64,000 bases of DNA from Haloarcula halophila (GTDB lineage: Archaea; Halobacteriota; Halobacteria; Halobacteriales; Haloarculaceae), in assembly GCF_029278565.1 (NCBI RefSeq), contig NZ_CP119559.1, positions 62,001-126,000 on the forward strand, given 5' to 3'. The notes under the pieces were generated by a model. It was given only the letters and a program-made list of their open reading frames with translations. It ran no database searches and had not been told where the DNA came from. Below, in pieces: positions 32,628 to 39,554 of the stretch. How positions within the stretch are numbered: the stretch's first letter is position 1; every line of letters starts with the position of its first letter. Both the position numbers and the translations under genes were made by a program.

Positions 32628-33347
32628 ATGACAGACGGCGCGTGGGTCTCGCTGTTCTCCGGCGGCAAGGACTCCTCGTGGGCGCTCTACCGGGCGCTCG
32701 AACGCGGCTACCCGGTCGAACGGCTCGTGACGGTCCACCCCGAGGGGGACTCGTACATGTATCACGTCCCGGCGACACAGTTGGCAACTCTCGCCGCCGA
32801 GAGCGTGGGGATTCCACTCTTGGAGGTCGAGCCGGAGGACTTCGGTGCCGACGACGTCCCCGACGCCGGCGTTCAGGGCGACGAGGAACTCGAACCGCTG
32901 GAGGCAGCACTCCGAGAGCTCGATTCGGAACTCGATGGGGGGATTACCGGTGTGACCGCCGGTGCTGTCGAGAGCGAGTACCAGACCACGCGGATCGAGG
33001 CGATGGCCGAACGCCTAGAAGCGCAGGTGTTCGCCCCGCTGTGGCAGGAAGACCCCCGAACGCTCGCCGAGGCGATGCTCGACGCCGGCTTCGAGATCCG
33101 TCTCATCCGCGTGGCCGCCTACGGCTTGGACGAGTCCTGGCTCGGCCGGACGCTGGACGCCGACGCGCTGGACGACCTCGAAGCCCTCAACGACGAGTAC
33201 GGCGTCCATATCCTCGGTGAAGGCGGCGAGTTCGAGACGCTGGTGACGGACGGCCCGCACATGGACCGTCGGATCGAACTGGAATACGAGACGGAATGGG
33301 ACGGCACTCGCGGGACGCTCCGGATCGAGGACGCGTGGCTGGAATGA
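32628..33347 (+). CDS. Dph6-type diphthine-ammonia ligase / ATP-PPase (239 aa)
   Basis: The P-loop SGGKDS at residues 11-16 marks an N-type ATP pyrophosphatase; the segment MTDGAWVSLFSGGKDSSWAL opens the protein. The later segment ITGVTAGAVESEYQTTRIEA and the ending LGEGGEFETLVTDGPH and RTLRIEDAWLE-like G-T-L-R-I-E-D-A-W-L-E fit the DUF71/Dph6 family, which amidates diphthine on elongation factor 2 with ammonia and ATP. The length of a single Dph6 domain is complete. The last 42 codons (33222-33347) are repeated downstream at 33475-33600 with only synonymous changes; see the separate entry. A hairpin and T-run follow the stop. Confidence 0.88.
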   Translation: MTDGAWVSLFSGGKDSSWALYRALERGYPVERLVTVHPEGDSYMYHVPATQLATLAAESVGIPLLEVEPEDFGADDVPDAGVQGDEELEPLEAALRELDSELDGGITGVTAGAVESEYQTTRIEAMAERLEAQVFAPLWQEDPRTLAEAMLDAGFEIRLIRVAAYGLDESWLGRTLDADALDDLEALNDEYGVHILGEGGEFETLVTDGPHMDRRIELEYETEWDGTRGTLRIEDAWLE

Positions 33348-33356
33348 GTTCACTCA

Positions 33357-33398
33357 CCGGTCACGAGTGAGTGTCACGAACGAGTGACCGGCTTTTTA
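33357..33398 (+). terminator. putative hairpin-plus-T-run terminator after the dph6-like gene
   Basis: CCGGTCAC (33357-33364) pairs perfectly with GTGACCGG (33384-33391), with a 19-nt loop. The T-rich CTTTTTAG follows at 33392-33399. It lies between the intact gene and the duplicated fragment. Confidence 0.5.
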
Positions 33399-33429
33399 GC
33401 GTAGATTTTTCGAGGAGCGGTTCCCGCAG

Positions 33430-33446
33430 TGCGCTCGTCGAGCGCA
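33430..33446. repeat. 17-nt perfect palindrome in the interval before the duplicated fragment
   Basis: TGCGCTCG-T-CGAGCGCA is an 8+1+8 perfect inverted repeat in a short GC-rich stretch. It lies between the intact dph6-like gene and the fragment, and could mark an insertion or recombination point; function is not known. Confidence 0.4.
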
Positions 33447-33474
33447 CGAGGACACCCGACGACGAAAAAGGTAC

Positions 33475-33600
33475 GGTGGGGAGTTCGAGACGCTGGTGAC
33501 GGACGGCCCGCACATGGACCGTCGGATCGAACTGGAATACGAGACGGAGTGGGACGGCACCCGCGGGACGCTCCGGATCGAGGACGCGTGGCTGGAATGA
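33475..33600 (+). pseudogene. duplicated 3' fragment of the dph6-like gene (last 42 codons)
   Basis: The frame from GGT at 33475 through TGA at 33598-33600 encodes the same 41 residues as the end of the intact gene at 33222-33347 (G-G-E-F-E-T-L-V at the start, D-A-W-L-E at the end). The two copies differ at four positions that I can see: GGC/GGT, GGC/GGG, GAA/GAG and ACT/ACC, all synonymous. Upstream of 33475 there is no further similarity, so no start codon or P-loop remains and the piece cannot make a functional enzyme. The offset is 253 nt. Synonymous-only divergence suggests that the fragment came from a separately evolved intact allele rather than from decay of a recent tandem copy. Confidence 0.85.
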
Positions 33601-33682
33601 GATAGCAGCGTCGGAGACGCTGGTCGCGTGTGATCGAGCGGTCACCGCGTCGTTTATCCGCCTCGGCGGGCACCACCAACGT

Positions 33683-34411
33683 ATGACAGAGGACGACGGG
33701 ACCTCAGGAAGCGGTGGGTTCACGATCAACTGGGACGAGGTCGACGAGGAGACGCGCGAGGAACTGGAGTCGATGGAGGTCCCCGAACAGACGGAGACCG
33801 ATGTCGACATCGCCGACAAGATCAACGAACAGAACGTCAAGGGTCGGATCGACCGGCTGGAAGCCTCTTACGACGATGTCCCCGTCACCGAGGAGACGTT
33901 CGAACTCTCGCCCGAGGAGTACAGTGAGGTCTACTCGGCGACGAAAGGGACCGGATACGACGGCAACAGCGTCGTCTTCGTCACCCGCGACGGTGATTCG
34001 CTGCCCGGCCTGAGCGAGAATATTCCGGAACAGGCCGCCCACGATACCCGCGACCGGGTCCTGATGGTGCTGGGTCGCGGTGCGGACCTGTGGGCGCTGC
34101 CGGGTGACGGCAACGGTGGACAGTACGAGTCCCTCCAGGAAGCGGCAGTCCGGCGCGTCCACGAACAGACCGGTGTCCGGTGTACGATCACCGGTGTCGA
34201 GGAGGTCTTCCACCGCAAGTACTACCCGGATAGTGACGCCGACGGTTCGGTCCATACGCTGGACGTCTACTTTCAGGCCGAGTACAGGAAGGGATCGCTG
34301 GACGTCGACGAGTCGGAACTCACCGGCGCCGCTTGGTTTGCCGAGCCCCCGAAGCAGTTGACCGAAGGGGCCGAACAGATCTGGCAGCGGTTCGTCGACG
34401 GCGGCGAGTAG
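33683..34411 (+). CDS. Nudix-fold protein with degenerate Nudix box (242 aa)
   Basis: An acidic N-terminal half (about 1-120) with no recognised domain is followed by a Nudix fold (RVLMVLGRGADLWALPGDGN). The Nudix box at 143-165 has the frame G-x5-E-x7-R-E-U-x-E-E-x-G-U, but the key acids are altered: the segment reads RRVHEQTGV, so R replaces the first E and Q replaces the last E. Only E161 of the three metal-binding acids remains. It may therefore be inactive or regulatory, or use other residues. The ending (DVDESELTGAAWFAEPPKQL) is typical for Nudix proteins. A TATA-like CGTTTATCCG lies near 33649-33660. Confidence 0.8.
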   Translation: MTEDDGTSGSGGFTINWDEVDEETREELESMEVPEQTETDVDIADKINEQNVKGRIDRLEASYDDVPVTEETFELSPEEYSEVYSATKGTGYDGNSVVFVTRDGDSLPGLSENIPEQAAHDTRDRVLMVLGRGADLWALPGDGNGGQYESLQEAAVRRVHEQTGVRCTITGVEEVFHRKYYPDSDADGSVHTLDVYFQAEYRKGSLDVDESELTGAAWFAEPPKQLTEGAEQIWQRFVDGGE

Positions 34412-39174: not shown

Positions 39175-39261
39175 ACTCCCGCTTCTGTGTGTCACACACC
39201 GCTGACGTACTCTCTACCGTCGGCCAGCGATACCACTCTTTACGTTCGTTTGGAGATGGTA

Positions 39262-39330
39262 TGCGCGGGACCGGATTTGAACCGGAGGAAGACTCGCGGT
39301 GCTCGTCTTCCAGGGTTCAGAATCCGTCGG
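39262..39330. repeat. tRNA-Leu 3'-end copy A with hairpin
   Basis: The first 24 nt (39262-39285) equal, base for base, the complement-strand 3' end of the tRNA-Leu gene (T-arm plus acceptor). They are followed by GGAAGAC (39287-39293), a loop, and GTCTTCC (39305-39311), a perfect 7-bp stem, and then by AGGGTTCAGAATCCGTCGGCC, an imperfect inverted copy of the T-arm sequence. The unit therefore is an imperfect hairpin with a tRNA-like end on each side. It lies 209 nt from the same point in the real tRNA. Confidence 0.8.
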
Positions 39331-39368
39331 CCACAAAACACGACGCTCACGTCCGTTCGAGTCGGTGA

Positions 39369-39445
39369 TGCGCGGGACCGGATTTGAACCGGAGGGAGAC
39401 GTTCTCACTACGTTGCGCGCGACTCCCAGGGTTCAAATCGGTCCT
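39369..39445. repeat. tRNA-Leu 3'-end copy B with hairpin
   Basis: The first 24 nt (39369-39392) are identical to copy A and to the tRNA 3' end. GGGAG (39394-39398) pairs with CTCCC (39423-39427), and the sequence after it, GGGTTCAAATCGGTCC, is an inverted near-copy of the T-arm (GGACCGGATTTGAACC), missing one base. The unit is thus a long near-perfect inverted repeat of about 22 nt per arm. It is 107 nt from copy A and 102 nt from the tRNA end. Confidence 0.8.
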
Positions 39446-39470
39446 GCTCTTCGCTCACTTCGTTCGCTCA

Positions 39471-39554
39471 TGCGCGGGACCGGATTTGAACCGGCGGACC
39501 CCTACGGGATAGCGTCCTAAGCGCTACGCCTTTTCCTAGCTCGGCAACCCGCGC
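39471..39554 (-). tRNA. tRNA-Leu (anticodon UAG)
   Basis: Read on the minus strand, this 84-nt gene folds fully. The acceptor GCGCGGG pairs with CCCGCGC and has an A discriminator base. The D arm is GCC...GGC, and the anticodon stem TAGCG/CGCTA holds the loop CTTAGGA with anticodon TAG at 34-36. A long class II variable arm (CCC...GGG) is present, and the T-arm GCCGG-TTCAAAT-CCGGT closes. CCA is not encoded. There is no intron. A TATA-like GGCTTGATACTCC lies upstream near 39580-39592 on the minus strand. Two copies of its 3' end lie downstream. Confidence 0.93.

Follow-up and report, generated by a model that had tools for sequence, protein, structure and literature searches.

In the window examined here, a stretch of 64,000 nt from Haloarcula halophila (NZ_CP119559.1, positions 62,001 to 126,000), an intact dph6 gene is followed by a second copy of its own 3' end, which raises the question of how such a duplicate arises and which of the two ends is native. 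The gene is the archaeal dph6, recognized by the NCBIfam model TIGR03679 with 266.7 bits (cut-off 197.3) and also by Pfam PF01902. A repeat search of the window identified a 127-nt direct repeat (33222-33348 and 33475-33601) with 97% identity and a spacing of 253 nt; a self-BLAST of the window listed three direct repeats that are at least 20 nt long and separated by at most 800 nt, and this one, the most significant of them, is thus not a product of chance. The two copies, A1 within the gene and A' downstream, comprise 126 nt each and differ only at nucleotides 3, 6, 75 and 87 (GGC/GGT, GGC/GGG, GAA/GAG and ACT/ACC). All four changes are silent, and both copies translate as GGEFETLVTDGPHMDRRIELEYETEWDGTRGTLRIEDAWLE*, the final 41 residues of dph6 and the stop. 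A first-pass annotation of the DNA had described this repetition of the last 42 codons, 253 nt downstream and with four silent changes, and it was confirmed by repeat search and translation. The elements of the locus are as follows:

32628..33347, + strand: dph6 (diphthine--ammonia ligase), intact; TIGR03679 equivalog, PF01902
33222..33347, + strand: A1, the dph6 3' end, 42 codons including the stop, with a second copy downstream (repeat search)
33349..33391, + strand: hp1, a 3'UTR hairpin with arms CCGGTCAC (33357-33364) and GTGACCGG (33384-33391) (sequence)
33393..33397, + strand: first T5 tract (sequence)
33401..33474, + strand: core of element B, a hairpin with GTA/TAC closing, TTTTTC on both strands and a sharp right end (fold, copy counts)
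33429..33447, no strand assigned: perfect inverted repeat GTGCGCTCG-T-CGAGCGCAC within B (sequence)
33475..33600, + strand: A', the displaced dph6 3' end, which begins at the right end of B; presumed untranslated remnant (repeat, downstream comparison)
33602..33682, no strand assigned: native dph6 downstream sequence, like that of the B-less genome G020 (comparison with G020)
33683..34411, + strand: NUDIX-domain gene (PF00293), the neighbour of dph6 in B-less G020 as well

The 127-nt spacer between A1 and A' consists of hairpins and T tracts only, and its inspection revealed no endonuclease ORF. The terminator-like hairpin noted earlier in this interval is real: the minimum free energy RNA fold of 33401-33474 (-30 kcal/mol, z -3.3) contains the closing GUA/UAC pair. 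The perfect palindrome reported within it also exists, but measures 19 nt rather than 17, with 9-nt arms and one central base. What did not hold is the treatment of the hairpin as incidental, since it is a recurrent element, referred to here as B, that marks the junction.

The flanks of the window locus were compared with those of other genomes. For the sequence that follows A', B-less G020 scores highest (52, against 14.5 for the next genome), and that which follows the A1 stop resembles B-bearing G029 (64.5) and G001 (55), B-less relatives reaching only 12. The copies themselves are 97% alike, against at most 90% between either of them and the other genomes compared (25, one of which had no data for this part); at this level of likeness, the comparison with the dph6 genes of relatives that had been proposed earlier, once performed, left the four silent sites impossible to assign to a donor or a native allele. 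The body of both copies comes from one lineage or from two very close ones, the UTR and B being the only parts clearly shared with other species. The earlier interpretation, in which homologous recombination brought in a new gene end and the old one stayed behind, is partly supported: it is right in kind, being well supported for the class of loci described below (mfnA, dph6, citrate synthase), and the flanks of the window copy fit it, but for that copy a donor from a different strain is only presumptive. Its argument from purely silent changes is weak on its own, two of the four lying in the first 6 nt after B, a zone in which changes cluster elsewhere. Of greater interest than this single copy is the terminator cassette that recurs across loci.

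Anatomy and distribution of element B

The core of B measures approximately 55-95 nt, mostly 68-76, and is preceded by a variable UTR hairpin and a T5 tract; alignment of 120 copies with MAFFT places hairpins similar to hp1 ahead of other copies as well. From left to right, the core is composed of NNA, 1-3 nt, TTTTT, a conserved arm (CGAGGAGnGGTnCCCGCAG), a variable hairpin, the second arm (CGAGGAnACCCGACGAnG), AAAAA, GG and TNN, and the inverted-repeat part is the most variable among copies in both length and sequence. The outer trinucleotides NNA and TNN are complementary in 112 of the 120 copies found by BLAST, the left motif having been sought by complementarity within a 50-nt region, 1-3 nt before the T run, and the closing pairs are of six kinds (GTA/TAC, CCA/TGG, CGA/TCG, GGA/TCC, GAA/TTC and GCA/TGC). 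This is the only independent count of pairing, since the scan behind a later count on 215 copies imposed the three closing base pairs; RNAalifold on the MAFFT alignment recovered only the middle of the hairpin, with the closing trinucleotides misaligned, and pairing was counted directly instead.

T5 tracts are carried on the + strand by 208 of the 215 copies and on the - strand by 210, and the TTTTTC motif is present in 128 and 158 of them, respectively, the window copy having both. In Haloferax volcanii, a T5C insert is described as causing 95% termination (PMC7237163). B is most simply, and probably, a bidirectional transcription terminator, which would stop transcription on both strands by means of its T5C tracts. 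It shares TTTTTC downstream of genes with the T5C terminators of H. volcanii, as these are presented in PMC7237163, but unlike them it forms a dispersed homologous family with a T5 per strand in a single covarying hairpin. Rfam gave no match up to E 10 for window positions 33300-33640, and no published description of B was recognized in the literature searched, which covered subscription journals thinly. The complementary trinucleotides that close the hairpin, the T5 tracts on both strands and the junction scar described below are new facts.

B is a family spread across the whole order. A 389-nt region used as query against 60 related genomes returned dph6 orthologs together with many matches to the spacer only, several per genome. 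The spacer as query detected B in 68 of 98 genomes (26 of 46 genera), and with B variants as queries it was detected in 114 of the 194 genomes that represented the order (39 of 64 genera) and in 116 of 146 genomes of the family, covering all 22 of its 22 genera. A pattern scan of named genomes yielded 32 stretches, in Haloarcula, Halosimplex, Halovenus, Halapricum, Halomicrobium, Haladaptatus, Halorubrum, Natronomonas and others. The sole bacterial record, from a Planctomycete (L219), has no right arm and was rejected as a chance match.

Gene ends displaced to the right of B

In a first set of 120 copies, 27 are followed by a repeat of upstream sequence, mostly starting within a few nucleotides of the right end of B. 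The larger set of 215 counts one copy (L188) more than once because of its alternative right ends; in 70 of its members, or 44 gene/junction lineages as defined by a simple identity cluster, part of the upstream gene reappears, displaced, directly at the right end. The null distribution of displaced-piece scores had a 99th percentile of 17, with five of 645 values at 20 or above and a maximum of 46, the high values probably coming from pairs of orthologous loci. The duplicated piece, 25 to about 150 nt long, in most cases represents the 3' end of a gene, and it often extends no further than the stop codon, which would follow if homology between alleles ended there. It is a gene 5' end in L102, where the start regions of the two copies differ (translated by eye), and in L036. 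A protein-level search for decayed A' in the remaining copies was too noisy, with spurious GC-rich frames giving nulls up to 86. On the left no conserved end could be recognized after A1, the sequence differing between loci and only the hp1-T5 arrangement being alike in type.

Where no displaced piece was detected, the right end of B often abuts the end of a converging gene: a convergent stop codon falls -2 to +5 nt from it in 83 of 140 such copies vs 18 of 420 control positions, and in an earlier set the figures were 67 of 91 and 15 of 273. Convergent tRNA-like 3' ends, identified by eye, abut four more copies (L048, L134, L176 and L179). Such a flush fit is unexpected given the 3'UTR lengths of Haloferax volcanii, for which a median of 97 nt is given (PMC7237163), and a homologous-recombination model leaves it unexplained.

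Relatives indicate which of the two ends is native. At a gene that is presumably mfnA, judging from its sequence, and for whose tail no Pfam match was found, the end behind B in G002, along with the sequence downstream of it, matches that of the B-less sister G010, and the end of the intact gene differs. The mfnA junctions are different in G000, in the group of G004, G005, G009, G015 and G016, in G002 and in G013, and are decayed in G014 and G020. At dph6, one junction is common to G000, G001, G002, G004 and G029, and G016 has another; the last copy in G029 ends in WLAE*, as in B-less relatives, with the upstream copies ending in WLE*; the native stop and downstream sequence are retained by the displaced copies of G004 and G016. 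The citrate synthase genes of G004, G009 and G015 have an imported end, UTR and B in common across species, and each A' displays the variant, stop and downstream sequence of its own genome. In L118, at a gene presumably GatB-like by name, 14 of 56 nt are changed between the copies, mostly silently, and the last residues and the stops that follow them are different. For this class of loci, the sequence comparisons make an old 3' end left by homologous recombination a well supported reading.

Sequence after A' matches B-less gene ends at mfnA of G005, G009 and G016, citrate synthase of G010, the gene of L080 in G004, G006 and G015, and dph6 of G000, G001 and G016; the match is absent or weak at mfnA of G000, G004 and G013, at dph6 of G002 and G029, and at most citrate synthase loci, for which there are few B-less relatives. 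This scoring of flanks recognized B by a strict pattern only, so that loci whose B has decayed or been split were in some cases counted as B-less, examples being mfnA of G002, G014, G015, G017 and G020 and dph6 of G004. At several genes, as in the window, A' is thus followed by native sequence and A1 by sequence that is shared. No A' was found at the B-bearing citrate synthase genes of G003, G005, G006, G016, G018 and G019 or at the B-bearing gene of L080 in G002.

Some loci depart from the common arrangement. Short gene-end remnants lie right behind the stop, with no B, at mfnA of G012 (L232) and G006 (L226) and at the gene of L117 in G010 (L265) and G002 (L267); these may have lost their B. 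Behind B at mfnA of G004 (L225) there are three successive decayed mfnA 3' ends, a stack that suggests repeated rounds of replacement. In the mfnA UTRs of G009 (L237) and G015 (L227), an extra insert, CACCGAAAGACTCGC...TTCGAGCCTTGCTTCG, splits the T5-NNN part of B; it also occurs near the citrate synthase gene of G015, and is perhaps another small repeat that targets B.

The pattern of change between A1 and A' carries the signature of selection. Synonymous changes account for 78 of the 118 pooled differences, against 33.7 if change were random (p 3e-17), and third codon positions hold 76 of the 118; the pooled test comprised 33 of the 44 lineages, the other 11 having no clear frame, excluded the first 9 nt of A', and kept L032 even if its frame is probably wrong. 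The excess also exceeds that of a post-duplication model with a synonymous fraction of 0.45 (p 3e-6), a value that is our own estimate for one copy constrained and one free after duplication. Since the excess surpasses both models, most displaced ends must have diverged as the ends of working genes.

The junction itself bears a scar. In 19 of 43 lineages, one of the 44 having been dropped because it lay at the edge of its stretch, 1-2 extra nucleotides are present exactly after the third base of A', and 24 of the 43, like the window junction, have no insertion at +4. Within positions 1-30 of A', other insertions are rare, and the first nine positions are richer in mismatches. By eye, C is frequent as the inserted base, G predominates at the third position and a purine generally comes next; likewise by eye, no motif is evident to the left of the junction, and no microhomology was seen between the end of B and the bases to the left. 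Translation of A' was rejected as the cause of the extra nucleotide, given that in the alignments the inserted base lies in different codon phases depending on the gene. Template switching by a nascent strand with its end folded into the B hairpin, joining at a staggered break and one-ended strand transfer are candidate origins of the scar.

Origin of the junctions

The reading that we prefer, with a probability of roughly 0.7, is that a cassette composed of the dph6 end, the 3'UTR hairpin and B was inserted within dph6 and displaced the resident end, B being a dispersed bidirectional terminator cassette. It would have entered at the GGE codons, after 33221, where the incoming end A1 would keep dph6 intact and the resident end A' would now lie further downstream, a fossil that is no longer translated but remains attached to the native sequence behind it. 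Across loci, the observations suggest that gene tails have been swapped and the old ones left as fossils. Spread between strains and species would require no more than ordinary homologous recombination: the upstream gene would serve as the left arm of homology and the fossil A' beside B as the right arm, so that the block from the end of A1 through the UTR to B could be recombined into the corresponding position of an allele that lacks B. Such two-arm recombination would account for what is observed, namely the same junction in several species and copies that are often identical in the middle, older near B and divergent after the stop. As to how B first became linked to a gene, the sharp base of the hairpin, the scar and the lack of an evident motif on the left point to a DNA end defined by the hairpin, which template switching or end joining would have connected to the gene.

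More tentatively, and with the odds against it, B-cassettes could constitute a new non-coding mobile unit, a self-structured bidirectional terminator that invades gene ends, displaces the resident end each time and employs this fossil as a homing arm between strains and species. The hairpin base would here define a DNA or RNA end, which would be joined with a fixed scar of three target bases and 1-2 untemplated nucleotides.

A close known parallel is found in the mORF gene hybrids of fungal mitochondria, reported for atp6 of Allomyces macrogynus and for atp6, atp9, cox2 and nad3 of Glomus, in which an endonuclease gene drives replacement and the native C-terminal end is displaced (PMC3630166). 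Those hybrids, as described there, and the B loci alike have a foreign C-terminal end that completes the gene and a native end downstream that matches close relatives, and in both the DNA differences can be all synonymous; mORFs, however, carry a LAGLIDADG or GIY-YIG endonuclease gene, whereas the insert at B loci is a non-coding hairpin of ~75 nt with a UTR. Also unlike mORFs, B loci are located on archaeal chromosomes and involve dozens of genes, including gene 5' ends (L036, L102). The PATE and SMR elements of Haloquadratum walsbyi, transposase-free mobile repeats described with no target duplication (PMC3119063), resemble B in being short, multicopy, palindromic and non-coding; in contrast to that description, B is tied to gene ends, bears T tracts on both strands and in many copies (70 of 215) borders a displaced, duplicated gene end. 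No sharing of ends with IS605-type elements was seen at the 37 tnpB/tnpA loci covered in six B-bearing or related genomes, apart from one weak partial match. B is here assigned to neither of these families.

Integrative elements that target the 3' ends of tRNA or protein genes leave an attL/attR direct repeat and restore the gene. B loci likewise display a directly repeated gene 3' end and a restored gene, but have no integrase or cargo, and it is the repeat length and the gene that vary and the hairpin that is constant. It is of note that, behind the tRNA-Leu gene of the window (39471-39554, - strand), its 3' end, CCGGTTCAAATCCGGTCCCGCGCAT, recurs twice, near 39367-39392 and 39262-39287; this region (39261-39554, - strand) harbors stacked att-like or displaced tRNA ends, with no B.

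Five lineages (L036, L098, L175, L298 and L338) have identical or nearly identical copies, which also fit intragenomic duplication. In L036 (G014:C1:1319201-1319800), four head-to-tail copies of B with a 170-nt period each carry the same gene 5'-end piece, and tandem arrays of B also occur in G013, G029, G067 and G077. The best surviving rival, which we nonetheless regard as improbable, builds on such cases: a transposable hairpin of the MITE or PATE type would have inserted at a gene end with a long and variable tandem or target-site duplication, and later differences would be silent because one copy is a real gene under selection. It draws on the identical copies, on the tandem [A-B]n arrays of G014, G013, G029 and G067 and on the sharp right end of B. 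Against it stand the synonymous excess of 78/118 over the 0.45 model (p 3e-6), displaced ends that match those of B-less sisters, downstream sequence included, as A1 does not, and a left end that is not conserved after A1. Nor does the duplicated piece, which often runs to the stop codon, resemble a transposon target-site duplication, identical and of fixed length; here it spans 25-150 nt, with copies diverged as orthologs at several loci. The haloarchaeal PATE/SMR repeats, moreover, are described with no target duplication (PMC3119063).

Less probable still is homing driven by RNA or a nuclease, in which B or a trans-acting enzyme would cut B-less alleles at the junction and repair would copy the cassette in. 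Reuse of the same gene and junction across species (dph6 in five genomes, citrate synthase, mfnA), an architecture like that of the mORF hybrids (PMC3630166), and the changes and insertions at nucleotides 3-6 of A' in many lineages, which could be repair scars or escape changes, speak for it. Against it are the lack of an ORF in the insert, the absence by eye of a motif left of the junction and the lack of B at the 37 tnpB/tnpA loci of six genomes, save for one weak 33-nt partial match; a guide-RNA role of the omegaRNA type for B, with no left motif and no tnpB link, was set aside and kept only as part of this rival. A Y1 transposase was rejected as a requirement, as B-bearing G004, G014 and G079, three of the six genomes, have no detectable Y1 domain. 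Ordinary homologous gene replacement next to an irrelevant terminator, as the first-pass annotation read the locus, is compatible with displaced native ends and with the well-known mating and recombination of haloarchaea (PMC10085750, PMC4500145), but is very improbable, since random events would be expected neither to use the same hairpin base as right boundary in 44 lineages nor to leave the same 3-nt+1 scar.

If the insertion and displacement of gene ends by a B cassette is right, it accounts for a recurrent haloarchaeal oddity, fossil gene ends behind intact genes, and provides polarized scars of between-species gene exchange at many core genes. It also suggests that a terminator hairpin of ~75 nt could spread with and through gene ends and with no gene of its own, and the fixed +3 scar makes the joining enzyme or process both searchable and testable. 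Should B prove to be a mobile unit in its own right, it would represent a protein-free and splicing-free counterpart of homing introns and mORFs.
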